Positions 38,871-55,635 of a DNA stretch of 64,000 nt are shown here, piece by piece. Made by a program: the position numbers and the translations under genes. Numbering within the stretch: position 1 is the stretch's first letter; each line of letters opens with the position of its first letter. Origin of the DNA: Skermanella mucosa. Its GTDB lineage: Bacteria; Pseudomonadota; Alphaproteobacteria; Azospirillales; Azospirillaceae. The notes under the pieces were generated by a model, which was not told where the DNA came from, did not search any database, and saw nothing but the letters and a program-made list of their open reading frames with translations. The DNA lies in contig NZ_CP086108.1 of assembly GCF_016765655.2 (NCBI RefSeq), positions 344,501 through 408,500 on the forward strand. Reading direction: 5' to 3'.

Positions 38871-39866
38871 ATGTCGAATACACCGTCCACCAGGGCCGCG
38901 CTGCGATTTAATATCGCCTTCCTGTCGTGGTGCGCCCTGTTCCTGGTCCTGGGCGCCGCCGGGCTCGCCGCCCTGGCGTCCGTCGATCGTCTTCCCGCGC
39001 CGCCGATCACGGCGACCAACTGCATCGACGAGAAGTTCAAGTTCCTCCGCGAGACGACCATCCGGGAACCCGACCTGCTGGCCGTCGGCTCCTCGGTCAC
39101 CTGGAGAAACCTGGACCTTTCCATCCTCAAGGCCCGCTACGGCAGCGCCGTCCAGCCGCTCAACGCGGCGCCCTGCTATCTCCACGTGGACGAGACGGCG
39201 TTCTTGACAGGATTCCTGCTGGACAACATGCCGAGCGTCAAGACGGTGCTGTCGGTCTTCTCCATGCGCGATTTCGAAGCCTGCTCCGCCGGCGAGAACG
39301 CCTTCTTCCGGCCCGGGGATGCCCAAGGCTATGTCTTCGGCGGCAATCCGGGCTGGCATCTCTACTTCAAGAACTTCAGGCCGGGAGCCTTCCTGCGCGA
39401 CGCCCTGACCCTGGCCGACATGCGGTCCGGGCGGAACATCGACGCGCCCCTGGTGATGGACGCCTACGGCTCGGGACCGCTGATGCTGCCGGAACCGGAC
39501 ATCCGCGAGAACGTCTCGGTCGATCCCGCCTGCCTCACGCAGCTGCGGGCCTTGAGCGAGGGTCTGGCCCGGCGCGGCGTCGAGTTCGTGGTCGTGCTGC
39601 TGCCGCCCATGCCGGCCTGGATCGCCGCCTACGATCCCGGCGGATTCCGGGACCGGGCCTTCCGAGCCGAGGTTTCCCGGCACCTGGAACGGACAGGAGC
39701 CCTGCTGATCGACGCCGCCAAGGGGCTGTCGCTGACGGACAAGGACTTCACGGACCATGCCCATCTGCAATGGACGTCCGTGCCGGCCTTCATGGATCAC
39801 CTGATCTCCCAGATGGACCGGTCGAAGCTCGATTTCGCCGGCGGGGAAAAACACCATGCTCTTTAA
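38871..39866 (+). CDS. SGNH-hydrolase-like membrane-anchored protein, partner of an MBOAT acyltransferase
   Basis: 331 residues from ATG 38871 (a TTG at 38853 is the alternative start). There is one N-terminal membrane segment (about 18-42). The periplasmic part has a GSS block (AVGSSVTWRNL, the likely Ser nucleophile) and a DxxH-like pair near the C-terminus (FTDHAHLQW). This is the arrangement of AlgJ/AlgX-like SGNH proteins that hand acyl groups to a polymer. It overlaps the following MBOAT gene by 11 nt, supporting a joint O-acylation function. Confidence 0.75.
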   Translation: MSNTPSTRAALRFNIAFLSWCALFLVLGAAGLAALASVDRLPAPPITATNCIDEKFKFLRETTIREPDLLAVGSSVTWRNLDLSILKARYGSAVQPLNAAPCYLHVDETAFLTGFLLDNMPSVKTVLSVFSMRDFEACSAGENAFFRPGDAQGYVFGGNPGWHLYFKNFRPGAFLRDALTLADMRSGRNIDAPLVMDAYGSGPLMLPEPDIRENVSVDPACLTQLRALSEGLARRGVEFVVVLLPPMPAWIAAYDPGGFRDRAFRAEVSRHLERTGALLIDAAKGLSLTDKDFTDHAHLQWTSVPAFMDHLISQMDRSKLDFAGGEKHHAL

Positions 39867-41337
39867 TTCCTGGGTGTTCATCGCCGCCTTCCTGCCGGTG
39901 ACGCTGGTCGTCTACCGCCTGCTGGCGCTCCAGCCCAACCCGCGCCTGCCGCTGCTGTGGCTGACGCTGGCGTCGCTCTTCTTCTATGGCTGGTGGAACC
40001 CGTCGCACGTCCCGCTGCTGCTGGCCAGCGTGCTGTTCAACCACGCGGCGGGAGCGAAGCTCGCCGCGCTGTCGCGGGGGCCGGCCGGATCGACCAGGCC
40101 GCTGCTGGCCCTGGGCGTCACCGTCAACCTGCTGCTGATCGGCTACTTCAAGTACTCGGTCTTCGTGCTGGACAATGTCGGGGCGCTGGCCGGCATCGAT
40201 TTCGGCATCAGGGCGCTGGTCCTGCCGCTCGGGATCTCGTTCTTCACCTTCCAGCAGATCGCCTATCTGGTGGACGCGGCGGAAGGCAAGTCGGCCGACT
40301 ACGGCCTGGCGGACTACTGCCTGTTCGTGGCCTTCTTCCCGCAGCTCATCGCGGGGCCGATCGTCCACCACAAGGACCTGATGCCCCAGTTCAGCCGGCC
40401 GGAGAACCTGCGCTTCAGCCACGAGGGCTTCGCCCTGGGCCTGGCCTTCTTCACGGTCGGGCTGTGGAAGAAGGTCGTGCTGGCAGACCAGCTCGCCACC
40501 TATGCGACCCCCATGTTCGATGCCGCCGCGACCCATGCATTGACCGCCGCGGAGGCCTGGACCGGAGCGCTGGCCTATTCCCTCCAGCTCTATTTCGACT
40601 TCTCCGGCTATTCCGACATGGCGGTCGGCCTGGGTCTGCTGTTCGGCGTCTGGCTTCCCTTCAACTTCAACTCGCCCTACCAAGCGACCGACATCATCGA
40701 TTTCTGGCGGCGCTGGCATATCACCCTGTCGGAGTTCCTGCGCGACTACCTCTATATCCGGCTGGGCGGCAACCGCCACGGCAAGGCGCGCCGCTACCTG
40801 AACCTGTTCCTCACCATGGTGCTGGGCGGGCTGTGGCACGGCGCCGGCTGGACATTCATCGTCTGGGGCGCCCTGCACGGCGTCTACCTGATCGTGAACC
40901 ACGGCTGGCGGGCGCTGCGCTCCCGCCTGGGCCTGGGTAACGGGGGCCTGGGCGGCGTCTGGCTCGGCCGGGGGCTGACGTTCCTGTGCGTCACCGTCGC
41001 GTGGGTCTTCTTCCGGGCGACCTCCCTGGACGACGCCTTCGCCATCCTGCACGCCATGACCGGCGCCAACGGCTGGACCGCCGATCCCGTGCGGCTCGGG
41101 TCCGTGGCCGACCTGTTCGTCTATCGCCACGAGATCCTGATCGCGTCCCTGCTCGCCGTCTGCATGCTGGCGCCCAACTCCCAGGAATGGCTGCTCGGCA
41201 CGGCCGGGGCCGGGCGGACGTGGCGGCTGCCCCGCTGGCAATTCACGCCGCTGTGGGCCGGCGTCGCGGCCTGCTGCTTCCTGTTCACCCTGACCCGCCT
41301 GACCTCGGTCAGCGAATTCATCTACTTCAACTTCTAG
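39856..41337 (+). CDS. MBOAT-family O-acyltransferase (AlgI-like)
   Basis: 493 residues with about ten hydrophobic segments. Hallmarks of AlgI/DltB-type MBOAT enzymes are clear: YFDFSGYSDMAVG near 250, then PFNFNSPYQATDIIDFWRRWHITLSEFLRDYLYIRLGGNRHG, and the active-site region GGLWHGAGWTFIVWGALHG near 325 with the conserved His. These inner-membrane enzymes pass acetyl or other acyl groups outward to modify extracellular polymers. The upstream SGNH protein is the expected partner. No polysaccharide biosynthesis genes are adjacent, so the acceptor is unknown. Confidence 0.93.
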   Translation: MLFNSWVFIAAFLPVTLVVYRLLALQPNPRLPLLWLTLASLFFYGWWNPSHVPLLLASVLFNHAAGAKLAALSRGPAGSTRPLLALGVTVNLLLIGYFKYSVFVLDNVGALAGIDFGIRALVLPLGISFFTFQQIAYLVDAAEGKSADYGLADYCLFVAFFPQLIAGPIVHHKDLMPQFSRPENLRFSHEGFALGLAFFTVGLWKKVVLADQLATYATPMFDAAATHALTAAEAWTGALAYSLQLYFDFSGYSDMAVGLGLLFGVWLPFNFNSPYQATDIIDFWRRWHITLSEFLRDYLYIRLGGNRHGKARRYLNLFLTMVLGGLWHGAGWTFIVWGALHGVYLIVNHGWRALRSRLGLGNGGLGGVWLGRGLTFLCVTVAWVFFRATSLDDAFAILHAMTGANGWTADPVRLGSVADLFVYRHEILIASLLAVCMLAPNSQEWLLGTAGAGRTWRLPRWQFTPLWAGVAACCFLFTLTRLTSVSEFIYFNF

Positions 41338-41346
41338 ATCGCGGAG

Positions 41347-41365
41347 GGGCGGCGTCCTGCCGCCC
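41347..41365. terminator. Possible terminator hairpin after the MBOAT gene
   Basis: GGGCGGC and GCCGCCC (7 bp) separated by a 5-nt loop, 10 nt after the stop codon. No T-run follows, so termination is uncertain. Confidence 0.35.
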
Positions 41366-41366
41366 T

Positions 41367-41392
41367 GGAACTGTGCCCGATCAAGTCGATCC
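41367..41392. repeat. Dispersed 3'-end repeat related to 62388-62411
   Basis: The segment containing CTGTGCCCGATCAAGTCGAT resembles CTGTACCCGAACAGGTCGAT at 62393-62412 (20 of 24 bases match over the aligned stretch). Both lie just after a gene's stop. It is a short member of an intergenic repeat family. Confidence 0.55.
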
Positions 41393-41540
41393 GGCCGGGG
41401 CAGGCGGCCGGAACCTGACCCGCATCCCGCCGATCCCGCGCCATGCGCAGATAGTGCTGGATCGGCCGGGCCGGACTGCGGATCATCTCCGGCGGGTCAT
41501 GCAGCCAACGACGTGGCTCTTCTGAGGGGAGGCAGCGATC

Positions 41541-42401
41541 ATGTTCAAGAAGATACTGGTGCCGTTGACGGGCGCAGGCACCGACCGGCGGTCCGCCGCC
41601 CTGGCCTTCATGGTGGCCGACCGGGTCCGGGGCCATGTCGAGGGCCTGTGCGTGACGCCCCACGCGGAAGTGGCGTCCCCGGTGGAGACCGCCTCGATCC
41701 CGGCCGCCCTGGGCCGGAAGCTGCGCGAGATCGCGGAGACGCGGCAGTCCCAACTGGTGGAATCGGCACGGCTGCTGTTCGAGGACCTGGACCGGCGCTT
41801 CGGCGGCCCCGGCACCGGGCGGCCGACCTCGTCCTGGCGCGCCGAGGTCGGCTCCCTGGCGGAGATCATCCCCGAGGAGGCCCGGCTGGCGGACCTGACC
41901 GTCTTCGCCCGCGACGGCGGCGGCGCCGACCTGATCGGTGCCGCGCTGGAAGCCACGCTGTTCGATTCGGGCCGTCCGATCCTGCTGGCGCCGGCAATGG
42001 AGCCCGGGGCGGAACCGGCGTCGTTCGGGACGGCCGTCGCCGTCGCGTGGGACGGCGGCCTGCCGGCGTCGCGCGCCGTTGCCTCGGCGCTTCCGCTGCT
42101 CGCGGCGGCGGACCGCGTGATCATCCTGACAGGCGAAAAGCCCTCCAACCGGCGCGCGGGCGATCCCGACCGGCTGGCGGAAAGCCTGCGCTGGCACGGC
42201 GTGAATGCAGAGTGCCTGCGGGTCACCGACGACGGGCGCCCCCTGGCGCTGGCGCTGGTGGCCGGAGCCGCCGAATGCGGCTGCGACCTGATGGTGATGG
42301 GCGGCTATGGCCATAGCCGTTTCCGCGAGACGGTGCTGGGCGGCGTGACCCGGGACATCCTGTCCACCCCGCCGGACCTGCCCATCCTGATGGCGCATTG
42401 A
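41541..42401 (+). CDS. Universal stress protein, tandem Usp domains
   Basis: 286 residues made of two Usp folds. The first (MFKKILVPLTG to about 150) has lost the Gly-rich nucleotide motif. The second ends with MGGYGHSRFRETVLGGVTRDIL, the complete G-xx-G-x9-G-T ATP-binding pattern. GGGGAGG lies upstream of the ATG. Such proteins help survival under stress and may bind ATP. It stands alone in its orientation, separated from the MBOAT gene by 203 nt, and does not reveal a pathway. Confidence 0.92.
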   Translation: MFKKILVPLTGAGTDRRSAALAFMVADRVRGHVEGLCVTPHAEVASPVETASIPAALGRKLREIAETRQSQLVESARLLFEDLDRRFGGPGTGRPTSSWRAEVGSLAEIIPEEARLADLTVFARDGGGADLIGAALEATLFDSGRPILLAPAMEPGAEPASFGTAVAVAWDGGLPASRAVASALPLLAAADRVIILTGEKPSNRRAGDPDRLAESLRWHGVNAECLRVTDDGRPLALALVAGAAECGCDLMVMGGYGHSRFRETVLGGVTRDILSTPPDLPILMAH

Positions 42402-43184: not shown

Positions 43185-44477
43185 ATGGCGACCAATCCAT
43201 CGCCGGAAGCCGACTGCGTCTTCCATCGCCGGGAATCCGGCGTTCGAAGCTATTGCCGCCACTTCAACGTCGTCTTTCGCAGCGCCCGGGGCAGTTTGAT
43301 GAGGGACGCCGCGGGGCGCGAATACATCGACTTCCTGGCCGGATGCGCATCCCTCAACTACGGCCACAACGACCCGGACATGAAACAGGCCCTGGTCGAG
43401 CACATCCTGAACGACGGCATCGCCCATGGCCTGGACCTCTTCACCACGGCCAAGCAGAGTTTCCTGGAAACATTCGAGAAACTCATCCTCGAGCCCCGGG
43501 GGCTGGATTACCGCCTGCAATTCACCGGCCCGACCGGCACCAATGCGGTCGAGGCGGCGCTCAAGCTGGCGCGCAAGGTGACGGGCCGAACGAACGTCGT
43601 GGCGTTCACCAACGGGTTCCACGGCGTGAGCCTGGGATCCCTGGCCGCCACCGGCAACCGCCATCACCGCATGGGTCCCGTCCTGCCGCTCCACGGTGTT
43701 TCGCGGGTTCCGTTCGACGGCTACCTGGGGCCGGACTTCGATACCGCCGACCTCCTCGACCGCATGCTGTCCGATCCAAGCAGCGGACTGGATGCGCCCG
43801 CCGCGATCCTGCTGGAGACGGTCCAGGGGGAGGGAGGGCTGAATGCGGCCGGTGCCCCCTGGGTGCGCCGGTTGGCCCGCCTGGCGGAGCGGCACGGCGC
43901 CCTCTTCATCGTGGACGACATCCAGGCCGGGTGCGGCCGGACGGGGACCTTCTTCAGCTTCGAGGCCCTGGGCGTGGTCCCCGACCTGGTGGTCCTGTCG
44001 AAGTCCCTGTCGGGCTTCGGGCTGCCCATGGCGCTCCTGCTGATCCGCCCGCAGCACGACGCGTGGCGGCCGGGCGAGCACAACGGCACGTTCCGGGGCA
44101 ATACCCATGCCTTCGTGACGGCCAGGGTCGCCCTGCGGAAATTCTGGTCCGACGGCGCCTTCGCCGCGGCCACCCAGGCGAAGGCTTCCCGGGTCAGGGA
44201 ACGGCTGTCGGGGATGGCGGAAATGATTCCGGGCAGCCGGATCAAGGGACGGGGCATGATGATCGGCCTGGATGTCGGCTCGGGCGAACTGGCCGACAGG
44301 ATCTGCCATCACTGCTTCGGGGACGGGCTGATCATCGAGACGTCGGGAGCCCATGACGAAGTGGTCAAGATCCTCGCCCCCCTGACGACCCCTGACGACC
44401 TGCTGGAACGCGGGCTGGACATCCTGGAGAACGCGGTCCACGCGGCTGCCCACGGCGGCCGGGCCGCCGCCGAATAG
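43185..44477 (+). CDS. Diaminobutyrate--2-oxoglutarate aminotransferase (EctB/Dat-like)
   Basis: 430 residues from the ATG at 43185, fixed by AGGAGGG 8 nt upstream. It is a class III PLP aminotransferase close to EctB: FHRRESGVRSYCRHFNVVF, FLAGCASLNYGHNDP, GPTGTNAVEAALKLARK, FTNGFHGVSLGSLA, VDDIQAGCGRTGTFF, and the PLP Lys at about 273 in VLSKSLSGFGLP. The family moves an amino group between glutamate and aspartate semialdehyde, giving L-2,4-diaminobutyrate. The ectoine partners ectA and ectC are absent. The next gene is a Pls-type polymer synthetase, so I infer that this enzyme supplies its monomer. Lysine-6-aminotransferase-like activity is less likely. Confidence 0.88.
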   Translation: MATNPSPEADCVFHRRESGVRSYCRHFNVVFRSARGSLMRDAAGREYIDFLAGCASLNYGHNDPDMKQALVEHILNDGIAHGLDLFTTAKQSFLETFEKLILEPRGLDYRLQFTGPTGTNAVEAALKLARKVTGRTNVVAFTNGFHGVSLGSLAATGNRHHRMGPVLPLHGVSRVPFDGYLGPDFDTADLLDRMLSDPSSGLDAPAAILLETVQGEGGLNAAGAPWVRRLARLAERHGALFIVDDIQAGCGRTGTFFSFEALGVVPDLVVLSKSLSGFGLPMALLLIRPQHDAWRPGEHNGTFRGNTHAFVTARVALRKFWSDGAFAAATQAKASRVRERLSGMAEMIPGSRIKGRGMMIGLDVGSGELADRICHHCFGDGLIIETSGAHDEVVKILAPLTTPDDLLERGLDILENAVHAAAHGGRAAAE

Positions 44478-44620
44478 GACCGACCCGGGCGCTTTCCCGA
44501 GGGAGACCGTCCGTCCGGCACCCGGAACCGGGTGCCGGCGCCTCCCGCCTTGCTCTCGTCCGACAGATCCCGCGCGGCATTCCGATCAACGTCAGCAAGA
44601 AACAGCTTCGGGGATCCGAA

Positions 44621-47600
44621 ATGGAAAGAACCGAACAGACCGTCACGAGCGAAGCGCCCGTCGAGGAGGAAGCCCCCTTCTCCCGCGAGACGATCGCTCA
44701 ACTCTATCCCGAGCCGGAGCGGGTCCTGACATGCCCCGGCCTCGGCAACCACATCCGCTGGCAGACCGGCGAGCGCCTCGACGGGCTGATCGCGTGGCGC
44801 TGCGCGATGATGAGCCGGAGCGGCGCCGCCGACCGGCTGGCGGTCTCGGCCGAGGACGGCCACCTGGGCTACGCCGACCTCGACCGGACGGCCAACCGGC
44901 TGGCACGCCTCCTGCTGAAGCGGGGCGTCGCGCCGGGCGACCGCGTCGGCCTGCTCTTCGCCAGGTCGATCTGGACCTATGTCGCGATGCTGGCGGTGAT
45001 GAAAGCGGGGGCTGCCTACGTCCCGCTCGATCCCGGCTTTCCCCGGGAGCGGGTCTCCTTCATCTCGCAGGATGCCGGCATCGGGCTCTTCCTGACGACC
45101 TCCGGGCTGGTCGGCCAGCTCGACGGGCTGGGAATGGAAACGCTCTGCCTGGACCGGATCGCCCCCCTCGTCGAGCGGGAACCCGACGCCCCCCTGGAGC
45201 GGCCGGCCGACGCCCCTCCGGATGCCCTCTGCTACATCATCTACACCTCGGGTTCGACCGGCTATCCCAAGGGCGTCGCCGTCGAGCACTCCAGCATCTG
45301 CAACTTCGTCAGGGTCGCGGCGGAAGTCTATGGGCTGACGGAGGACGACCGCGTCTACCAGGGCATGACGATCGCGTTCGATTTCTCGGTCGAGGAGATC
45401 TGGGTCCCGCTCTATTCCGGGTCGGCGCTGTTTCCCGCGCCGGCGGGTCCCAGCCTGGTCGGAGCCGACCTGTCGCAGTTCCTCTCGGTGCGGCGGATCA
45501 CGGCGCTCTGCTGCGTGCCCACGCTGCTGGCGACGCTGGAGGACGACCTGCCGTCCCTCCGGTTCATCCTGGTTTCCGGGGAGGCGTGCCCGCACAATCT
45601 GATCGAGCGGTGGTACCGGGAGGGCAGGACCTTCCTCAACGTCTACGGCCCGACGGAGGCGACGGTCACGGCGAGCTGGACGCTGCTGGAACCGAACAGG
45701 CCCGTCACCATCGGCGTGCCGCTCCCGACCTACATGATCCTGATCCTGGAGCCGGGCGAAGCCCGGCTGGCCAGGAAGGGCGACGCCGGGGAGGTCTGCA
45801 TAGCGGGCATCGGCCTGGCCCGGGAGTATGTCAACCGGCCCGACCTGACCGCCAAGGCCTTCATCCCCGATTTCCTGTACCTTCCGGACAACCCGTCCGG
45901 CCGCATCTACCGGACCGGCGACCTGGGACGCGTCACCGGGGACGGCGAGATCGAGTATCTCGGCCGGATCGACGCGCAGGTGAAGATCCGCGGCTACCGC
46001 ATCGAGCTGGCGGAGATCGAATCCGTCATCATGAGGGTGCCCGGGATCGCCCAGGCCGTCGTGGGCAAGTACGAGCCCGCGCCCGGCGCCGCCGAACTCG
46101 TGGCCTACTACACCCTCCGCCAGGACACCGCCGACCCCGGGCCGGACGCGATCTTCCAGGCCATCCGCAGCCATCTTCCGGCCTACATGCTGCCGGCTTT
46201 TTACGAGGCGATGGACGCCTTGCCGATGCTGCCGAGCGACAAGGTCGACCGGAAGAAGCTGCCGGCCCCGTCGCGACCCCGCTTCGTCGCCCGGAGCGCC
46301 CGGTACGTGGCGCCGGGCAACGACACCGAGCGGGAGATCGCCCGGATCCTCGGCGACGTGCTGACGGTCGAGCAGGTCTCGATGGACGACCATTTCTTCG
46401 ACGACCTGGGCGCCAATTCCCTGCTGATGGCGCGGTTCTGCGCCCGGGTCCGGGAACGCTTCGACTTCTCCGAGGTCTCCATGCGGGAGGTTTACCTGCA
46501 TCCGACCCTCCGGGAACTCACCGCGTTCCTCTCGACCAAGGTCCGCCGGAAACAGGAGGCCGTCCGCGACGAGCCCGTCCATGTCGCAAGCACGGCGGAC
46601 TATGTCCTGTGCGGCTTCCTCCAGCTTGCCTTCTACGCCGTCTATTCGACCGCCCTGGTCGTCGCGCTGGTCGAGGGCTACGGCTGGGTATCCGCCTCGG
46701 ACACCTTGGCCGACAGCTATGTCCGGTCGGCGGCGTTCGCCGCGACGGCCTTCGTCACCCTCGCCGCCCTGCCGGTCGCGCTCAAATGGCTGCTGGTCGG
46801 CCGGTGGCGGGAGGAGCGGATCCCGATCTGGAGCCTGGGATATTTCCGATTCTGGATCGTCAAGCGGCTGGTCCAGGCGAACCCGATGGTCCTGTTCGTC
46901 GGATCCCCCGTCTACAATGCCTATCTGCGGATGCTGGGAGCCAAGGTCGGCCGGGACGCGGTCATCTTCTCCGTCGCTCCCGTCTGCACGGATCTCCTGA
47001 CGATCGGCGATGCCGCGATCGTCAGGAAGGATTCCCTCCTTACCGGATACCGCGCCCGGTCCGGCTTCATCGAGACCGGCTCCGTCGCCATCGGCCGGAA
47101 CGCCTTCGTCGGGGAAGGGACGGTGCTGGATATCGGCACCTCGATCGGCGACGGCGCCCAGCTTGGCCATTCGTCCTCCCTTCACCGGGGGCAGGCGATA
47201 CCTCCGGGCAAACGCTACCACGGGTCGCCCGCCCAGGAGACGCAGGACGATTACGCGACGGTCGAGCCCAGGCGCTGCGGCACCCTGCGCCGATGGGCCT
47301 TCTCCGTGGCGCAGGTGGTGTCCCTGTTCGCGGTCACCCTGCCGCTGCCCGTCATGGTGCTGGACGCGCTGCTGAGCTCACTGGAGTTCGGGACGGCGGC
47401 GGAAGTGGTCGCCCACGCGAGCGCGAGCTTCACCGCCCTGGACTTCCACCTGGACCTGCTCGCCTGGTCCGCCGGGCTGTTCTTCGGGCTGCTGATCCTG
47501 GGCCTGGCCATCATCGTCACGGTGCCGCGCCTGCTGAACCTCTGCCTCAGGGAGGACACGACCTACGTCCTGTACGGGTTCCACTACTTCGTGTACCGGC

Positions 47601-48727
47601 TCGCCTCCCGCATGAGCAATTCGTACTTCTACAATCTGCTGTTCGGTGACAGCTCCTGCATCATCTATTACCTGCGGGCGATCGGTTACCGAATCTCGCT
47701 GAGCGACCAGACGGGATCGAATTTCGGGGTCTCGCAAAAGCACGACACGCCCTTCCTGTGCGAGATCGGCAAGGGGACCCTGATCTCCGACGGCATCTCC
47801 ATGATCAACGCGCATGTCTCGAACACGTCCTTCAGGCTGTCGAGGGTCGCGATCGGCTCGAACAGCTTCATCGGGAACAACGTGCTCTACCCGGCCGGCG
47901 CCAAGGTGGGGGAGAACTGCCTGCTGGCCACCAAGGTGATGGTCCCGATCGGCGGGGCCGAGTTGAACGGCGCGGGGCTGCTGGGATCGCCCTGCTTCAG
48001 GATCCCGCGCTCGGTCGCCCGGGACCAGCAGTTCGAGCATTACCGGGACGGCCCGACCTTCAAGGAAAGGCTCCGCCTGAAGAACATCTCCAACACGATC
48101 ACCATGGGATTGTTCCTCGCCCAGCAATGGCTGTTCGTCCATCTGGTCACCCTGCTCGCGGTGAACGAGATGGCGCAGTACCATGAGGCCGGCTGGGTGG
48201 CGCTGTTCGACTTCACCCTCATCCTTCCCGTCATGACGGTGGCGTACTTCGCCCTGGTCGAGCGGGCCAGCCTCGGGTTCGGGAAGCTGAAGCCGCAATT
48301 CTGCTCCATCTACGACGACTATTACTGGAAGCACGAGCGGCACTGGAAGCTCAGCGAGATCCTTTACCTCGAGGTCTTCTCGGGAACGCCGTTCAAAAGC
48401 ATGATCTGGCGACTGCTCGGGCTGAAGGTCGGGCGGAAGCTGTTCGACGACGGCTGCGCGATCCCGGAAAAGTCGCTCGTCGCCATCGGCGACAACTGCA
48501 CCATCAACCGGATGACCACGATCCAGGGCCACTCGCTGGAAGACGGGGCTTTCAAATCCGACCATATCCGCATCGGCAACGGCTGCACGATCGGCTGCAA
48601 CGCCTTCGTCCATTACGGGGTCGATATGGCGGACGGCGTGGTGCTCGACCCGGACTCATTCCTGATGAAGGGCGAGACGCTGGCCGCCAACTCGACATGG
48701 CGAGGCAATCCCGCCCGGGAGATCTGA
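44621..48727 (+). CDS. Pls/PosA-family membrane NRPS (poly-diamino-acid synthetase)
   Basis: 1368 residues with the full layout of epsilon-poly-lysine synthetase. It has an adenylation domain (about 60-545; TSGSTG near 209, YGPTEAT, YRTGDLG, KIRGYRIE) and a carrier domain with the phosphopantetheine Ser at 600 (DDLGANSLL). The rest is a membrane half with about six helices in pairs (near 655-680/700-725, 890-920/945-970, 1165-1190/1198-1215) alternating with three soluble acyltransferase-like domains with hexapeptide character (e.g. GSNSFIGNNVLYPAG, GRNAFVGEGTVLDIG, GNGCTIGCNAFVHYG). In Pls these tandem domains join monomers iteratively into a homopolymer. Specificity residues read as DFECLSVVT. 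Glu at the third position is the kind of residue that can pair with a side-chain amine, fitting a diamino acid. The upstream aminotransferase points to 2,4-diaminobutyrate. Product, linkage and length are inference. Confidence 0.92.
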   Translation: MERTEQTVTSEAPVEEEAPFSRETIAQLYPEPERVLTCPGLGNHIRWQTGERLDGLIAWRCAMMSRSGAADRLAVSAEDGHLGYADLDRTANRLARLLLKRGVAPGDRVGLLFARSIWTYVAMLAVMKAGAAYVPLDPGFPRERVSFISQDAGIGLFLTTSGLVGQLDGLGMETLCLDRIAPLVEREPDAPLERPADAPPDALCYIIYTSGSTGYPKGVAVEHSSICNFVRVAAEVYGLTEDDRVYQGMTIAFDFSVEEIWVPLYSGSALFPAPAGPSLVGADLSQFLSVRRITALCCVPTLLATLEDDLPSLRFILVSGEACPHNLIERWYREGRTFLNVYGPTEATVTASWTLLEPNRPVTIGVPLPTYMILILEPGEARLARKGDAGEVCIAGIGLAREYVNRPDLTAKAFIPDFLYLPDNPSGRIYRTGDLGRVTGDGEIEYLGRIDAQVKIRGYRIELAEIESVIMRVPGIAQAVVGKYEPAPGAAELVAYYTLRQDTADPGPDAIFQAIRSHLPAYMLPAFYEAMDALPMLPSDKVDRKKLPAPSRPRFVARSARYVAPGNDTEREIARILGDVLTVEQVSMDDHFFDDLGANSLLMARFCARVRERFDFSEVSMREVYLHPTLRELTAFLSTKVRRKQEAVRDEPVHVASTADYVLCGFLQLAFYAVYSTALVVALVEGYGWVSASDTLADSYVRSAAFAATAFVTLAALPVALKWLLVGRWREERIPIWSLGYFRFWIVKRLVQANPMVLFVGSPVYNAYLRMLGAKVGRDAVIFSVAPVCTDLLTIGDAAIVRKDSLLTGYRARSGFIETGSVAIGRNAFVGEGTVLDIGTSIGDGAQLGHSSSLHRGQAIPPGKRYHGSPAQETQDDYATVEPRRCGTLRRWAFSVAQVVSLFAVTLPLPVMVLDALLSSLEFGTAAEVVAHASASFTALDFHLDLLAWSAGLFFGLLILGLAIIVTVPRLLNLCLREDTTYVLYGFHYFVYRLASRMSNSYFYNLLFGDSSCIIYYLRAIGYRISLSDQTGSNFGVSQKHDTPFLCEIGKGTLISDGISMINAHVSNTSFRLSRVAIGSNSFIGNNVLYPAGAKVGENCLLATKVMVPIGGAELNGAGLLGSPCFRIPRSVARDQQFEHYRDGPTFKERLRLKNISNTITMGLFLAQQWLFVHLVTLLAVNEMAQYHEAGWVALFDFTLILPVMTVAYFALVERASLGFGKLKPQFCSIYDDYYWKHERHWKLSEILYLEVFSGTPFKSMIWRLLGLKVGRKLFDDGCAIPEKSLVAIGDNCTINRMTTIQGHSLEDGAFKSDHIRIGNGCTIGCNAFVHYGVDMADGVVLDPDSFLMKGETLAANSTWRGNPAREI

Positions 48728-48768
48728 GGCCGATCGGGTGCCAAGCAGACAACAATGGGGAACATGTC

Positions 48769-49233
48769 ATGTCCGGAACAGCAAGAATGCGGCCGGCAGA
48801 TATCCGTCCGGAGTGGATGCCACTCCTCGGTCCGGCTGATACGCTGGAACTGATCGGCTTCGGCAAGGGAACGGGGTGCCGGTCAGGCTTTCGGGAATGG
48901 ATCTACGTGGCCCTTCACCGAACCTATGGCGATTGGACCCACGTCTACGACGTCGTGCTTCGCCCGGGCTGCCTGGACGCGGAGATACGCCTGATCCGCG
49001 TCATGCCCGGCGACCGCAGGGGCGAGGCGCGCTCCTGGGCCATGGCCGCACGGGGAAACGATCTCCGCGGCCGGGCGGCGGGACCGGACGACAGCCTGTA
49101 CGGGCGGGGCCTTGCCTGGTGCCGGCCCTATCCGGAGGGTGGCCGCGCCTTCCAGGACACCGCGAGGCAGGACACCGCGAATCGAGCCACTGCAACGAAG
49201 GATTTGAGATGCGCCTTACCCGCCGTGCCCTGA
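48769..49233 (+). CDS. Hypothetical protein between polymer synthetase and S41 peptidase
   Basis: 154 residues from ATG 48769 (GGGGAA about 9 nt upstream), overlapping the next gene by 25 nt. I do not recognise it. Residues 15-110 look like a compact mixed fold (LELIGFGKGTGCRSGFREWIYVALHRTYGDWTHVYDVVL) with three Cys. The last 30 residues are Arg/Thr/Ala-rich and may be unstructured. No signal or membrane segment, so probably cytoplasmic. Its place in the operon suggests a role tied to the polymer synthetase. Confidence 0.55.
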   Translation: MSGTARMRPADIRPEWMPLLGPADTLELIGFGKGTGCRSGFREWIYVALHRTYGDWTHVYDVVLRPGCLDAEIRLIRVMPGDRRGEARSWAMAARGNDLRGRAAGPDDSLYGRGLAWCRPYPEGGRAFQDTARQDTANRATATKDLRCALPAVP

Positions 49234-50615
49234 TCGCCTCCACCGCGGCAGCCGCCGCCACGGGCATCGTGGCGTCCCTGGCATCGGCCGACCGGACGGT
49301 GCCCCGCGGTACCCTACCCACGGGATTGTGGCGTTCCCGAACCACGGCCGACCTGCTCGCCGTCGACAGGTCGGCCTGCCGCACCTACACCCGCTACGAC
49401 ACGATGATGGCCCTGGTAGACGAATCGCCGCGCGACGGCATCGAGAAGGAGCTGATCGAGGCGCGGCTCGAAACGGACCCGGGCCGCGGCGACCGGCTGG
49501 AGCTGGAATACTGGGGCACCGTAACCCGCTTCGTCTATGACCGGGAGGCGGACTGGCCGGCCATGCGCCGCCTGGGCGGCGACGACTGGATATCGGACCC
49601 GTCCCGGACAGTGGACGCGTTCTTCAAGGCGGTGTCCGGCCACTTCGCCTTCGCCCCCGAGGCGGGGATCGACTGGACCGACCTGCGGGCGGAAACCGAC
49701 GCGGCGCTCCGGCGCGGGTCGTCTGAACCGGGAGCCCTGTTCGACGCGCTGGCGGCGGCCCTGCGGCGCCTGGAGGACGGCCACGGCTCCCTGAGGGGCA
49801 TGGGGCGCTACGCCGCCAGCCGGGACGGCCCGGATCGGTTCTACCAATCGTGGAAGGCGGCGGGCGGAAATCCGGTGGGCGGCGACTATTCGGACGGCTT
49901 CAGCCGCGACTGGCTCCATCATGTCAGCGACCGTGTCCTGGCCGGAGCGGGACACCGCGCCGCCCGGGACACCGTCGCGTGGGGGCGGCTCCGGAGCGGC
50001 CTGGGCTACATCGCGCTGATGGCCTGCGAAGGGCTGTCGCACGACGAAGGGGGACAGGCCGACGTGGCCGCGGCCAGGCAGGTGTTCGACCGGGTGATGC
50101 GGGATCTGGCGGACACCCGGGGAATCGTCGTGGACATGCGCTACAATTACGGCGGATGGGACCGGGTGCCCCTCTCCCTGGCCGCCCATTTCACGGACCG
50201 GCCCTTGCCGGCCTTCACCAAGCAGCCGGTGAGGCGCGGCATCGGCCTGGACGTCCAGACCATCGGGATCGTCCCGGCGGCCGGTCCCCGCCACGCCGGG
50301 CCCCTGGCCGTCCTGACCAGCGACGCCACCATCAGCGCCGCGGAAGTCGGGACCATCGGGTTCCGCGCCCTGCCGAACGTCCGCACCTTCGGAACCGCCA
50401 CCTACGGCGCCCTGTCCGACCCCTTCTACTTCCGCCTGCCGAACGGGTGGAGGGGGGCGGTCTCCAACGAGATCTACCGGGCGTCGGACGGCCGGGTCTA
50501 CGAGGGGACGGGGATCCCGCCCGACCGGCCCTCGGCGGCCCCCTCCGCATCGGACTTCCGGGAGGTGGTGGACTCCCAGCTTCGGGACGCGGAAGCATGG
50601 CTCCTGTCACTTTGA
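49209..50615 (+). CDS. S41-family (C-terminal processing protease-like) peptidase with Tat-like signal
   Basis: 468 residues from ATG 49209. The N-terminus MRLTRRALIASTAAAAATGIVASLASA resembles a twin-arginine or Sec signal, so the protein should be exported. The C-terminal half matches S41 peptidases: GLGYIALMA, a conserved DMRYNYGG (the usual DLRxNxGG), and AVLTSDATISAAEVGTIGFRAL, which holds the expected Ser in ISAAE. The following region (GTATYGALSDPFYFRLPNGW) fits the family's post-catalytic strand. No PDZ domain is obvious. In this setting it might trim the polymer or process the adjacent porin. This is inference only. Confidence 0.85.
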   Translation: MRLTRRALIASTAAAAATGIVASLASADRTVPRGTLPTGLWRSRTTADLLAVDRSACRTYTRYDTMMALVDESPRDGIEKELIEARLETDPGRGDRLELEYWGTVTRFVYDREADWPAMRRLGGDDWISDPSRTVDAFFKAVSGHFAFAPEAGIDWTDLRAETDAALRRGSSEPGALFDALAAALRRLEDGHGSLRGMGRYAASRDGPDRFYQSWKAAGGNPVGGDYSDGFSRDWLHHVSDRVLAGAGHRAARDTVAWGRLRSGLGYIALMACEGLSHDEGGQADVAAARQVFDRVMRDLADTRGIVVDMRYNYGGWDRVPLSLAAHFTDRPLPAFTKQPVRRGIGLDVQTIGIVPAAGPRHAGPLAVLTSDATISAAEVGTIGFRALPNVRTFGTATYGALSDPFYFRLPNGWRGAVSNEIYRASDGRVYEGTGIPPDRPSAAPSASDFREVVDSQLRDAEAWLLSL

Positions 50616-50628
50616 CGGCGGCGGCATC

Positions 50629-52362
50629 ATGAGGCGGAGGGCGCTTGCCTCGACGGCGGTCCTTGCCCTCATGATCCTTCTCCCGGCAGCCGACGCTTCC
50701 GCCGAAGAGGCGCTCACGACGCTTGCCCAGGCCGCCGAGGAGGAGGACGAGGAAGAAGAGGAAGAGGAAGAGGAAGAGGAAGGGGAAGAAGAAGAGGATC
50801 AGAACGAGGAAGAGGACAGCGAGGAAGAGGACAGCGAGGAAGACGACAGCGAGGAAGAGGACGACGAACCGGTGCTCGTCCCCGGACAGCTGCTCGCGAC
50901 CCTCTACGGCACGTCGACACTTCAGGCGGGATTGGGCGGGGACCTCACCCGCGGCCTGCAGTTCCGCAACGACACGGAGATAGGGATCAACGTCGGGGGC
51001 AAGGCCGACAACGGGCTTCTGTACGGCCTGAAGGTTCAGTTCCAGGCCATCACCGGGGGTGACTCCACCTCGGAGATGGATATCGACGAAGCATATGTTT
51101 ATCTCGGCGGAAACTGGGGCCGCCTGGAGTTCGGCGACACCGACGATGTCGTGGCCGGAGGACTTCTCGTCTATGCCCCCAGCGTCGGGATAGGCCAGGT
51201 CGACGGCGATTACGGCAGCTTCTCCAAACTGACTCTGGACGATTACTATCCGTTCTATCCGGACCTGGGATCGGGGACCAAGGTGAACTACTACACCCCC
51301 TGGATAGGCGGCTTCCAGGCGGGAATATCCTACACGCCCTATGTTCTGGATCGCGGCCAGTCGGTCGTCGCCTTCAAGCCGGGAAGGCTCCGCACCGCTC
51401 CGGCGACCCTCGCGGGTCCGTCGTCGCTCGGCTTCGTCAGCACGCCCGCGGCGGCGGGCCTGTCTTCTTCCCTGGCCGTTCCGGCGGTGCTTCCGTCCGC
51501 TCCCGCGCCGAACCTCGCCGCCGTGGCGGAGCCTGCCGCGATCACCGTCAACCAGGTCATCGAGGACGGCGAGGAGGACATCGGCGATGAGGAGGATGAC
51601 GAAGAGGAGGTGGACGAAGACGAGGACGACGGGGAAGACGAAGGCGACGGGGAGGACGAGGACGACGGTGAAGACGAGGACGACGGGGAAGACGATGGCG
51701 CCGGGGAGGAACCGGAAGACGACGGCGAGGAGGATGACGGTGATCCCGACCCCGGGCAGCCTGATCCGGAAGACCCCTCTTCCGACCCCGAAACGCCGCC
51801 CGTGATCGATCCCGACCCCGAGACGCCCGACGTGGTGGTGCCGGGGGAAGAAGATCCGGATGATGAGGAAGAAGAGGAAGAGGAAGAGGACACGGAGGAG
51901 GAGAGCGGATACCGGGACGTCGTCGCCCTGGCGATGAACTACCAGAGGGAGTTCCTGGACGGGGACATGACGGTCATCGGCAGCGCCGCGCTGATGAACG
52001 GCAGGGGCTACGGCGAGGGTTTCGAGGATTTCACCGCCTGGCTCGCGGGCGTCCAGGTCGAGGTCGCGAGTTTCACGGTGGGCGGCGGGTTCGGCGATTT
52101 CGACGGCTTCAACAGCCTGGGCCGGCAATGGAACGTCGGGGCGACCTATTCAGCCGGTCCGTTCAGCATAGGTGCCCAGTATGTCCAGGCCTGGGACATC
52201 AACGACGACAAGTCGTGGGCGGCCGGCATCGGCGTGAACTACGAACTGGCGCCCGGACTGTCGCTCCAGGCCGACTATGTCCGCTCCCGGGTCGATTTCG
52301 AGGGGGCCGAAAGCCGGAACACCGCGGACATCCTCCTGCTCGGTCTCCAACTGAGCTTCTGA
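50629..52362 (+). CDS. Outer-membrane porin with two poly-acidic segments
   Basis: 577 residues with a signal peptide (MRRRALASTAVLALMILLPAADASA). Immediately after cleavage comes a run of nearly pure Glu/Asp (about 36-80). A Gram-negative porin barrel begins at about 88 (GTSTLQAGLGGDLTRGLQFRND) and continues to a terminal Phe (LLLGLQLSF). A second acidic insert, residues about 305-426, interrupts the barrel between strands and must be a loop or plug with well over half Asp/Glu plus Gly and Pro. Ordinary porins of this type have no such blocks. It starts 13 nt after the S41 gene, last of the run that begins with the diaminobutyrate aminotransferase, so I infer electrostatic handling of a polycation. 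Simple cation-selective uptake is an alternative. Confidence 0.88.
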   Translation: MRRRALASTAVLALMILLPAADASAEEALTTLAQAAEEEDEEEEEEEEEEEGEEEEDQNEEEDSEEEDSEEDDSEEEDDEPVLVPGQLLATLYGTSTLQAGLGGDLTRGLQFRNDTEIGINVGGKADNGLLYGLKVQFQAITGGDSTSEMDIDEAYVYLGGNWGRLEFGDTDDVVAGGLLVYAPSVGIGQVDGDYGSFSKLTLDDYYPFYPDLGSGTKVNYYTPWIGGFQAGISYTPYVLDRGQSVVAFKPGRLRTAPATLAGPSSLGFVSTPAAAGLSSSLAVPAVLPSAPAPNLAAVAEPAAITVNQVIEDGEEDIGDEEDDEEEVDEDEDDGEDEGDGEDEDDGEDEDDGEDDGAGEEPEDDGEEDDGDPDPGQPDPEDPSSDPETPPVIDPDPETPDVVVPGEEDPDDEEEEEEEEDTEEESGYRDVVALAMNYQREFLDGDMTVIGSAALMNGRGYGEGFEDFTAWLAGVQVEVASFTVGGGFGDFDGFNSLGRQWNVGATYSAGPFSIGAQYVQAWDINDDKSWAAGIGVNYELAPGLSLQADYVRSRVDFEGAESRNTADILLLGLQLSF

Positions 52363-52582
52363 GCCGCCCGTTCCCGGCGAGCGCTCGACCGGCACGCCCG
52401 ACGCCGATCATTCCCGTTGCCGCGAACCGGCAATGGGATTACGTTCGATCGGCAACAACTTTTACCTGAATATTATAGTATTCAATAAACCGGCCGTGCG
52501 GGCCGCCCTCTACCCCGGGGTGCGGCCGGCGGACGGATGTTGCCTTGCTTTCGGTCATTTTCCCGGTCAGGGGAGGGTCATA

Positions 52583-54703
52583 GTGCAACGTCTTTCCAGG
52601 AAATCACCTGTCAGCCGACCGGGCGCCGCGATGATCGCGGCGCTGGCCGTCGCGACGGCCGCCGTCCTCGGCACCGCGTCGGATGCCGCCGCGCAGGCGG
52701 CACCATCCAAGCGGGTCTTCGCCAATCCGCCGGTGCTCGGCGAGGCGGCATCGCCGCCGTCCATCGCCTCCCTGCTGAAGCTGCCGACCCCCGGCCCCCG
52801 CCGCGGCAGCGAGCGGCTGTACGACCTCACCATCAAGTATGTCGACAGCACCCTGTACAATCCTTCGACCGGTGTCGACCAGCCGGTGCATCTGCGCACA
52901 TATGTCGGCACCGACACCAGCCCCGACCGGCCGTTCATCGCGCCGACGCCGGGCGACACGGTGCGGGTCAACCTGAAGAACCGGCTGCCGGCGGACCCCG
53001 ACTGCTTCGACGCGACGATCCCGACCAACAAGCCGCACTGCTTCAACGGCACCAACCTGCACTCGCACGGCCTGTGGGTCAGCCCGACCGGCAACAGCGA
53101 CAACGTGCTGGTCAAGCTGCTTCCCGGCGTCGATTTCCAGTACGAATACAATATCCCGCCCGACCATCCCTCGGGCACCTTCTGGTACCACCCGCACCTG
53201 CACGGCTCTACCGCGCTGCAGGTTTCCAGCGGCATGGCCGGCGCGCTGATCGTGCGTGGCGACCGCAAGCCGACCGAGACGGTCAACGGCGACCTGGACA
53301 CCCTGCTGGTCAAGCCCGACGGCGGCGCCATGCCCGAGCAGCTGCTGGTCTTCCAGCAGATCCAGTACGCCTGCACCGGCGCCGACGGGAAGATCAAGGT
53401 CGATGCCGACGGCAACGTCGACTGGACCTGCCTGCCCGGCGAGGTCGGCGTCATCGAGAGCTACGAGCAGTTCGGTCCGGGCACCTGGGCGGCGTCCGGC
53501 CGCTGGACCAGCATCAACGGCGTGGTCCTGCCCGAGTTCCGCGGGCCGATGGCCGGCCAGGCGGAGCGCTGGCGGCTGGTCCATGCGGGCGTGCGCGAGA
53601 CCATCACGGTCCAGTTCCGCAAGGTGTCGCGCGACATCGGTCCGGTGGCGCAGCTCCGCCTGAAGGCGTCCGACAGCGACAGGTTCGTCGAGGAGACCTG
53701 CGGCGGCGCCCCGGTGCCGTACCAGATCGTCGCGTCCGACGGCCTGACCATGGCCCAGGCGCAGACGGTGACCGCGACGACCCTGCAGCCGGGCTACCGC
53801 AACGACCTGCTGGTCGTCTTCCCCGAACCGGGCCGCTACTGCATCAGCGAGGTCGCGACCTCGGCCGCGGGCAATGTCAGCGAGGCCGCGTCGGGCCGCG
53901 AGATCCTGGGCTTCGTCGAGGTCTCGGAGCGGCCGAAGGACAAGGCCCCGGTGACCGACGTGACCAAGGCGCTGACCGAGCAGCTGGTCGCCGCCGCGCA
54001 GAAGGTCTATGCCGGCAAGGTGCGGGACGAGGTGATCGCCGGCCTGAAGGACGGGCTGAAGCTGACCCGGTTCGTGCCCCATCCGACGATCGAGGACTCC
54101 GAGGTCCAGAGCGGCGAGAAGCTGGTGTTCTTCATCAACACCTATTCGAACGACCCGACGACCTTCGAGGTCGGCGAGGACTTCGACGTGGTCGAGAACG
54201 CCAACGGCAACCTGGTGCCCGAAGGCGCCGTCCCCTACGACCCGACCCGGATCGACCGCAAGCTGCCGCTGGGCGGCGTGCAGGAATGGGAGCTGCGCTC
54301 CTATTTCGTCAGCCACCCGTTCCACATCCACGTCAACCCGTTCCAGATCGTCAAGATCCTGGACCCGAACGGCAAGGACGTCAGCGTCGCGGGAGCGGTG
54401 GACAGTTCCGGCCAGACCACGGCGGACCCGCAATATCCTGGCCTGAAGGGGGTCTGGAAGGACACGCTCTGGGTCAAGAGCCTGATCACCTCGGGCCTGA
54501 CCAACCCGCCGACCGGTGAGTACAAGATCTTCATCCGCACCCGCTACCGCCGCTACATCGGCGAGTTCGTCCTGCACTGCCATATCCTGGACCACGAGGA
54601 CCAGGGCATGATGCAGAACATCAGCATCGTCCTCCCGGACGGGCAGGGCGGCACCGCCCACGGCCACGGACACGGCTCAAGCCACGCGGCCGCCAAGCCG
54701 TGA
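52583..54703 (+). CDS. Exported multicopper oxidase
   Basis: 706 residues from a GTG start at 52583, preferred because GGGAGGG lies about 7 nt upstream and a signal peptide follows at once (MIAALAVATAAVLGTASDAAAQ). All four copper motifs are present: NLHSHGLW, WYHPHLHG, HPFHIHVNPFQI and HCHILDHEDQGMM, giving one type 1 and the trinuclear centre. A His/Gly-rich tail (AHGHGHGSSHAAAKP) could bind metal. The protein probably oxidises a metal ion or phenol in the periplasm using oxygen. It is separated by 220 nt from the porin gene and is followed by a strong hairpin, so it looks like its own unit. Confidence 0.93.
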   Translation: MQRLSRKSPVSRPGAAMIAALAVATAAVLGTASDAAAQAAPSKRVFANPPVLGEAASPPSIASLLKLPTPGPRRGSERLYDLTIKYVDSTLYNPSTGVDQPVHLRTYVGTDTSPDRPFIAPTPGDTVRVNLKNRLPADPDCFDATIPTNKPHCFNGTNLHSHGLWVSPTGNSDNVLVKLLPGVDFQYEYNIPPDHPSGTFWYHPHLHGSTALQVSSGMAGALIVRGDRKPTETVNGDLDTLLVKPDGGAMPEQLLVFQQIQYACTGADGKIKVDADGNVDWTCLPGEVGVIESYEQFGPGTWAASGRWTSINGVVLPEFRGPMAGQAERWRLVHAGVRETITVQFRKVSRDIGPVAQLRLKASDSDRFVEETCGGAPVPYQIVASDGLTMAQAQTVTATTLQPGYRNDLLVVFPEPGRYCISEVATSAAGNVSEAASGREILGFVEVSERPKDKAPVTDVTKALTEQLVAAAQKVYAGKVRDEVIAGLKDGLKLTRFVPHPTIEDSEVQSGEKLVFFINTYSNDPTTFEVGEDFDVVENANGNLVPEGAVPYDPTRIDRKLPLGGVQEWELRSYFVSHPFHIHVNPFQIVKILDPNGKDVSVAGAVDSSGQTTADPQYPGLKGVWKDTLWVKSLITSGLTNPPTGEYKIFIRTRYRRYIGEFVLHCHILDHEDQGMMQNISIVLPDGQGGTAHGHGHGSSHAAAKP

Positions 54704-54743: not shown

Positions 54744-54922
54744 ATTCCGGCTTTCTCAAAAGCCTCCGTCCTGTTAAAGGGAAAACTTTACCGATCACGC
54801 TCGCGCGATCATAATCCTCCGGTGGCTCCTGGGACCCACCATGAATGAGGATCTCAGCGCTTTGCTCGGAAAGGGCGACATACCGAGGCAGATCGGGATG
54901 CACCGGATTGACGGAAACAGCC

Positions 54923-55294
54923 GTGCCGCGCATCGCTGAGTTGGACGACCGGGAACTCGCCAACTGCGTGACATCCCGACTGCCAGCCGGCGTGCTGGCT
55001 CAAGTCGCGGAGGCCGGGTATACGCTCCCTGAAACATTCCAGCTTGTATATGGTGGCGAATTGCCTCGCGAAGATCGCCTCACTCCTGGCGAGAGCGACT
55101 GTGCAGTCAGGTTGATCCGCATTGCGAACCGGGCGAGGAAGGTGTTCGGCGATCCCGAGAAGGCATGGCGATGGATGAGGAAGCCGAAAAACGCGTTCGA
55201 CGGCAAGACGTGCGTCGACATGCTAAGGACTGAACAGGGCGGCAGGGAAGTCGAGAACATGCTGGTTCGTATTGAACACGGTATGGCCGCCTGA
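54923..55294 (+). CDS. Xre/MbcA/ParS-type antitoxin (DUF2384)
   Basis: About 123 residues if translation begins at GTG 54923; the frame stays open upstream to ATG 54845, so the start is uncertain. The C-terminal half is the toxin-binding domain of RES-linked antitoxins: VRLIRIANRARKVFGDPEKAWRWMRKPKNAFDGKTCVDML, with the typical FGD..KAxxWL/M and P...G..P/C..M pattern. The N-terminal part should be a helix-turn-helix-like region (LPAGVLAQVAEAGYTLPETFQLVYG). It lies 2 nt before the RES toxin gene, as in intact pairs. In active systems it blocks the toxin and represses its own promoter. Confidence 0.85.
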   Translation: MPRIAELDDRELANCVTSRLPAGVLAQVAEAGYTLPETFQLVYGGELPREDRLTPGESDCAVRLIRIANRARKVFGDPEKAWRWMRKPKNAFDGKTCVDMLRTEQGGREVENMLVRIEHGMAA

Positions 55295-55296
55295 TC

Positions 55297-55635
55297 TTGA
55301 TCGTCTGGCGTCTGAGCCGATACACCGAACTTCAGGGTATCGGTGGTTTGCATGCGAGTGGACGCTGGCACGAGAAGGGTCATCCGATCGTCTACGCGGC
55401 GGCGGAAAGGCTGTCGCCAGACAGCCCGGTTCTGGCGAACGAGCATGAGTCCCGGCGTTTCGGTACAGCCTGGCTTACGGAGAAGCGCTCGGCGGTTCTC
55501 CTCGTTCCCTCCGTCATCATTCCGGTCGAGACCAACATCCTGATCAATCCAGGACACCCCGATGCCGCAGGGGTATCCATGATCGAAGCCACGGAATCCG
55601 TCTTCGACGATCGCTTGTTCTCCCGGCCGCTTTAG
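55297..55635 (+). pseudogene. RES-family toxin with an internal in-frame deletion
   Basis: 112 residues from TTG 55297, versus about 150-160 usual for RES toxins. The N-terminus (MIVWRLSRY...GGLHASGRWHEKGHPIVYAA) and C-terminus (RSAVLLVPSVIIPVETNILINPGHPDA) are good RES sequence, including Arg23, Tyr33 and the VPS serine. About 45 residues between them are missing: after IVYAAAERL the sequence jumps to RRFGTAWL, skipping the helix that normally carries the conserved Glu. RES toxins degrade NAD. This copy is probably inactive. The deletion keeps the frame, so an altered but expressed product cannot be ruled out. Confidence 0.75.

Follow-up and report, generated by a model that had tools for sequence, protein, structure and literature searches.

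How can a cell with two membranes release a membrane-damaging polycation and leave its own anionic outer membrane unharmed? To our knowledge this is an open problem, and it is raised by a five-gene locus of the soil bacterium Skermanella mucosa that lies in a 64-kb stretch of DNA (here called the window; positions 344501-408500 of contig 3 in a 7.84 Mb genome of five contigs). Between 43185 and 52362 on the plus strand, five co-directional genes encode an EctB-type transaminase, a synthetase of the Pls/PosA family (Pls hereafter), a 154-amino-acid (aa) protein, an S41 peptidase and a porin. In gene order, the first two gaps measure 143 and 41 nucleotides (nt), the next pair of genes overlaps by 25 nt, and 13 nt precede the porin. 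An earlier sequence-only reading of this DNA had described such a co-directional set with short gaps and a hyper-acidic porin, and the family scores (Table 1), the largest gap of 143 nt and a porin net charge of -131 bear this out. We think it probable that the locus is a Gram-negative operon for gamma-poly-2,4-diaminobutyrate with envelope-handling genes of its own.

The synthetase scores 737 bits against TIGR02353 (cut-off 423), 255 bits for AMP-binding and 42 bits for PP-binding, and its domains run adenylation, thiolation, then the TIGR02353 terminal domain, as membership of the Pls/PosA family requires. Hydropathy resolves three pairs of helices, six in all (662-687, 701-728, 892-923, 942-977, 1162-1182 and 1190-1218), a count that leaves aside weaker peaks at 780-801 and 109-127. 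In the PheA register, the adenylation code reads DFECLSVVTK, so that position 1 is Asp and position 3 is Glu. In PosA, these two residues are described as essential and conserved across the family, and position 2 is proposed to set chain length, with Ala for lysine, Met for ornithine and Phe for 2,3-diaminopropionate (Dap) or 2,4-diaminobutyrate (Dab) (PMC10522769). Two phosphopantetheinyl transferase matches are present in the genome, one of them on the contig of the window.

The gene upstream of the synthetase, whose start is preceded by AGGAGGG, is ectB, a gene that ectoine synthesis combines with ectA and ectC, and the sequence-only reading had remarked on the lack of these two. Neither was found among the neighbouring proteins scanned, and EctC (PF06339) was found in none of five Skermanella genomes, that of the window included; 14 other genomes scanned gave two matches above the cut-off and one sub-threshold match. 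Because EctC is missing from all five Skermanella genomes, EctB is unlikely to serve ectoine, and we rejected that pathway. Each of the three Skermanella species with Pls has EctB next to one. At loci L052 (7910-9856) and L059 (7908-9857), the Pls-adjacent EctB reaches about 650 aa; the transaminase match of the L052 protein begins near residue 188, implying a long N-terminal extension.

Is the pairing of this code with such a transaminase a general pattern? We compared 101 Pls proteins, with L117 and L118 dropped as duplicates of L036 and L007, and with three of 104 loci (L014, L035 and L120) dropped for want of a full-length Pls frame; of 487 relatives, 80 were retained by the genome scan, whose search patterns favor DFE codes. 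Counting as Dab-type any transaminase with a phmmer score above 150 bits to the window EctB, and dividing the codes by Ser or Gly at position 6 (a split defined post hoc, with the data already seen), we found such a gene within 4 kb of 52 of the 67 DFExxS synthetases, none of the 24 DFExxG synthetases and none of the 10 whose code belongs to neither class. Restricting the count to loci with 2.5 kb or more on both sides gives 46/55, 0/15 and 0/9, and with one row per genus, or per record title if a genus was lacking, the result is 29/35 for DFExxS versus 0/13. All eight Pls-linked transaminases scanned have a Dab transaminase model as best match, above the TIGR00709 cut-off. The sequence-only reading had proposed a poly-Dab-like polycation, a proposal that gains from the code, the adjacent transaminase, the code-context association and the clusters of the literature, but stays a prediction; as judged from these features, synthesis of poly-Dab at this locus is quite likely.

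The porin contains 153 Asp or Glu versus 22 Lys or Arg residues. Alignment with 11 ordinary porins of three Skermanella genomes identifies it as a paralogue of the ordinary Porin_4 barrels plus two acidic inserts: a tail of 57 residues (net -40) after the signal peptide, and a loop of 173 residues (net -71) at a place where the ordinary porins have few residues at most. Without the inserts, the barrel has a charge of -22, compared with -20 to -46 for the 11 whole ordinary porins. The acidity is kept in three species (577, 752 and 620 aa; net -131, -184 and -132), and the inserts vary in length and sequence. By analogy with general porins, we assume that the tail is periplasmic and the loop extracellular, a putative topology based on the aligned paralogues and on that group. 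Searching the PDB by sequence with the window porin retrieved no porin.

The acidic porin and its S41 neighbor have a distribution that follows that of the EctB-Pls pair. Among 82 genomes of the order, Pls is present in 51 (E <1e-80; 50 of the 51 over the family cut-off), the acidic-porin subgroup in 3 (E <1e-60; scoring covered the best 16 first-look candidates of each genome) and the S41 peptidase in the same 3 (E <1e-20), which are also the Skermanella genomes that yielded EctB-Pls. Neither gene is found in the 48 other Pls genomes or the 31 genomes of the order that have no Pls; in the genus itself, both occur in 3/3 Pls-bearing genomes versus 0/2 others. S. rosea carries all five genes in identical order on plasmid pSR-1. 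In S. aerolata, EctB-Pls reaches a contig end (locus L036), and S41 then acidic porin begin two other contigs, an assembly break that leaves the five-gene order unproven there. Conservation of the neighborhood, which the earlier reading had put forward as a check, is thus seen in the order kept by S. rosea and in a porin and peptidase that track EctB-Pls in 3 of 82 genomes. This is a tight linkage in one genus; it upholds to that extent the earlier claim of a dedicated outer-membrane component, but not a transport function.

Elsewhere in the order, Pls occurs in other settings: 48 of the 79 genomes other than the Skermanella trio carry it (G747-G809), and the stretches of 21 Pls loci from those 48 genomes contain no EctB and no S41 gene, with 12 DLEDIG codes, 3 DAESVG codes and 6 that are incompletely readable. 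Across the class, 10 of 385 genomes have a Pls (E <1e-80), and of the nine besides the window genome, the eight with a readable Pls frame all differ from it in code and lack a transaminase within 4 kb. In the tree, Skermanella stands beside a branch made up mostly of actinobacteria (support 89, unstarred); we do not claim a transfer from Actinomycetota to Skermanella.

For the peptidase, we took ATG at 49209 as the start and rejected the GTG proposed by the open reading frame finder. Its leader, MRLTRRALIAS, has a motif resembling that of twin-arginine translocation (Tat) substrates when inspected by eye, and the protein is probably exported by that route. His192 and the serine of the TxSAAE motif (T374-x-S376-A-A-E379) are invariant in an alignment of four sequences, its partners being three S41 proteins of Hyphomicrobiales encoded 0.7 to 4.5 kb from an EctB-linked Pls on the opposite strand. 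The PDB relatives rank as 8vcb (labelled Q5LIA5), 4l8k (a putative peptidase), retinol-binding protein 3 and, fourth, the nisin-resistance protein NSR, at 60 bits. NSR is an S41 protein that also has a catalytic His and a serine, in TASSAEM, and inactivates the lantibiotic nisin by a Ser-His dyad (PMC4698656). Unlike the window peptidase, NSR is Gram-positive, and the three higher-ranked structures are closer to the window protein. A guard against stray polycation and a trimmer of chains both fit these features. Another peptidase cluster (cluster 8) has a member within 6 kb at seven actinobacterial Pls loci; the one scanned is an M28 peptidase.

The small gene in between was not called by a coding-score gene caller, and its 154-aa product has no family match and no PDB relative. 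Compared with the S. rosea counterpart over 120 codons, changes at the three codon positions number 35, 30 and 59, and since they concentrate at third positions the gene is probably real.

Beyond Skermanella, EctB lies beside Pls in Leisingera, Thiotrichaceae and Hyphomicrobiales, and in metagenome-assembled genomes (MAGs) of Myxococcota and Planctomycetota; in the family of Leisingera (345 genomes searched), all three Pls-bearing genomes, Leisingera and two others, have the pair. The core pair, known in Actinomycetota, is therefore spread, if rare, among diderms. Several of these loci have a barrel or a barrel-like protein of their own. In a Thiotrichaceae MAG (L096), the gene between EctB and Pls encodes a porin of the LbtU family (106 bits, cut-off 90) whose N-terminal part includes an acidic stretch; about 30 nt separate it from either neighbor. 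In Leisingera sp. ANG1, an acidic protein (net -50) lies 133 nt downstream; it is barrel-like by eye, with a signal-like start and an aromatic end, and it matches no family and, to any meaningful degree, no PDB entry. In two MAGs of Hyphomicrobiales, FadL homologues, one cut by a contig end, are convergent with Pls. Barrels thus adjoin EctB-Pls in 5 of 13 diderm lineages versus 0 of 18 DFExxG loci (Fisher p 0.008), an exploratory comparison in which one of the five barrels is barrel-like by eye only, the 18 controls were read by eye, as were L131 and L132, several others were assessed only in part by Pfam, and L087 was dropped since a short transposase-like gene and a contig end follow its Pls. 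We regard the association as suggestive. DFExxG Pls genes of Rhizobiales (L009, L010, L011, L013, L050, L089, L107 and others) are often followed by a GNAT acetyltransferase, a phosphopantetheinyl transferase or both, and have no Dab transaminase near them.

Taken as a pathway, the locus would work as follows. EctB, going by its family, would convert aspartate semialdehyde to L-Dab; the Pls adenylation domain would activate Dab and load it onto the carrier domain, and the membrane domain would polymerize it through isopeptide bonds, as homology to characterized synthetases suggests. The chain might be released on or across the inner membrane. The porin's tail and large loop, with about -111 charges that have no equivalent in the paralogues, would bind the polycation electrostatically and let it exit through the outer membrane. 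The exported S41 peptidase would trim or destroy stray periplasmic polymer and so protect the cell from itself. Export through the porin is the more doubtful part of this scheme, an idea we hold tentatively.

The main rival to export accepts that poly-Dab is made and sees the porin as a shield or sponge, whose acidic tail and loop would soak up polycation at the cell's own outer membrane and so protect the producer or display the polymer on its surface. We rate this about as likely as export. The acid sits outside the conserved barrel, whose own charge is ordinary (-22), and no barrel was recognized next door in 8 of the 13 diderm EctB-Pls lineages, both of which suit a sponge; yet a simple secreted acidic protein would suffice for that role, and the locus instead retains a complete, conserved pore, with the unrelated LbtU porin adjoining EctB-Pls in L096 hinting at transport. 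It is improbable that porin and peptidase are accidental neighbors on a shared mobile stretch. Linkage in one genus only, and an S. rosea copy that is plasmid-borne with two transposase genes near, are what such a stretch might leave, but the window genes overlap or are 13 to 41 nt apart, the order is kept in S. rosea and the S41-porin pair in S. aerolata, and the linkage is found in 3/3 EctB-Pls genomes versus 0/79 others of the order.

Two further alternatives concern the product. The EctB gene might adjoin by chance a synthetase for another diamino polymer such as poly-Dap, which the Phe at code position 2 permits, since it is common to Dap- and Dab-polymerizing synthetases (PMC10522769). 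This too seems improbable to us, given a Dab-type transaminase near 52 of 67 same-class synthetases in four phyla and 0 of 34 outside the class, and no Dap-forming gene among the nine window proteins scanned. Alternatively, EctB could feed Dab to a large nonribosomal peptide synthetase (NRPS) cluster that lies in the same window 17 kb upstream (1-25821, minus strand), with Pls a separate matter. This cluster passes the window edge, so further adenylation domains lie beyond view; none of the seven visible codes looks diamino-type by standard code tables, and four of them resemble the threonine code (DFWNVGM-type). In S. rosea, the plasmid that carries EctB-Pls accounts for just 17% of the NRPS query, at a distance of about 310 kb on the record. 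We judge this source of demand for Dab very unlikely from the adenylation codes. The whole NRPS region (1-30295, minus strand, past the window edge) encodes three synthetases (3481+, 2965 and 2156 aa) and a cyclic-peptide-type ATP-binding cassette exporter (TIGR01194, 328 bits, over the cut-off).

Several observations weigh against the operon as we read it. By the code alone, poly-Dap is still allowed, and for 15 of the 67 DFExxS synthetases (9 of the 55 whose flanks are both visible) a transaminase within 4 kb is lacking. A phylogeny-aware test of code and context comprises three independent pairs, most of which point the expected way and none the opposite (median p 0.25), and with three pairs only it cannot reach significance. 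An aspartokinase is typical of actinobacterial clusters (22 actinobacterial loci have an aspartokinase-cluster protein within 6 kb of Pls; the one member checked matches PF00696), and the nine proteins scanned at 39.8-55.3 kb gave no AA_kinase match. Those nine include no DapF-like Dab racemase either, so the simplest account is that general aspartate metabolism supplies the L-Dab, and a polymer of L configuration would be expected. The co-occurrence of porin and S41 peptidase is confined to one genus, and 8 of 13 diderm EctB-Pls lineages have no recognized adjoining barrel. A second Pls of S. aerolata (L116, 5049-10358; code DFEPLSAVSK, followed by a PALP-family enzyme dependent on pyridoxal phosphate) has an acidic porin 3.8 kb upstream, and EctB is absent from the visible stretch; this locus may represent a system of the diaminopropionate type. 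Structure models were of little help: a single-sequence model of the porin had a mean predicted local distance difference test score (pLDDT) of 37, and one of the peptidase from four sequences had a pLDDT of 51, both too low to build on. Product and activity are predicted from sequence.

How much of this is new? The earlier statement that no such Gram-negative system had been described was too strong, for EctB-Pls pairs occur in other Proteobacteria and the PosA of Acinetobacter baumannii, a Gram-negative member of the same synthetase family, makes delta-poly-L-ornithine, its neighboring genes pointing to no release route in the part of the report available (PMC10522769). The clusters closest in content are actinobacterial. 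In Streptoalloteichus hindustanus, pddA-D for gamma-poly-D-Dab combines a Pls-type synthetase (PddA) and a Dab transaminase (PddC) as the window does, but adds a Dab racemase and an aspartokinase (PddD), and the available text names no porin or S41 gene (PMC8225329). The pldA-dat-ask genes for gamma-poly-L-Dab in Streptomyces likewise pair a synthetase with a Dab transaminase, dat, but include an aspartokinase, and no envelope genes are named in the portion available (PMC8117764). For the full set of EctB, Pls, S41 peptidase and acidic porin, we found no description in the open-access literature, subscription papers being mostly outside that scope. The EctB-Pls core is thus already known, and it is the envelope genes that look new.

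Table 1. Features of the Skermanella mucosa locus, in window coordinates
Feature	Position	Strand	Basis
EctB-type diaminobutyrate--2-oxoglutarate transaminase	43185..44477	+	TIGR02407 604 bits (cut-off 552), NF006733 636 bits; function by family
Pls/PosA-family cationic homopolyamino-acid synthetase	44621..48727	+	TIGR02353, PF00501, PF00550; hydropathy; code DFECLSVVTK
Small conserved protein, 154 aa	48769..49233	+	No family; no PDB match; aligns with S. rosea counterpart over 120 codons
S41 peptidase, Tat-like leader	49209..50615	+	PF03572 61 bits; alignment; PDB relatives
Hyperacidic outer-membrane porin	50629..52362	+	PF13609 (Porin_4) 113 bits; charge; alignment to 11 ordinary Skermanella porins
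Porin acidic N-terminal tail, residues 26-82, net -40	50704..50874	+	Alignment to ordinary porins
Porin acidic loop insert, residues 252-424, net -71	51382..51900	+	Alignment to ordinary porins

Upstream of the locus (39856-42401) are an MBOAT acyltransferase and a universal stress protein, in an order common to S. rosea pSR-1, where a tripartite tricarboxylate transporter set separates the two. A multicopper oxidase (52433-54703) follows the porin, from which it is separated in S. rosea by an FkbM methyltransferase and two transposases. Farther on are an Xre/MbcA/ParS-type antitoxin (54845-55294) and a small open reading frame behind it (55297-55635), a possible partner. No Rfam family matched in the 64-kb window.

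For the family, a DFExxS code with an adjacent Dab transaminase offers a sequence rule for finding candidate poly-Dab producers outside Actinomycetota. A broader idea, which we consider unlikely but worth stating, is that diderm poly-Dab producers recruited dedicated outer-membrane pores as an electrostatic exit for the polycation, Skermanella by adding two polyanionic inserts to a resident porin, with a periplasmic peptidase as guard; the LbtU porin of Thiotrichaceae, the FadL homologues of the two Hyphomicrobiales and the barrel-like protein of Leisingera would then be independent recruitments. Since the Skermanella locus names a specific channel, peptidase and polymer, synthesis, export and self-protection can each be addressed by single deletions. 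If the export reading is true, the locus offers a candidate route by which a two-membrane cell may release a polycation.

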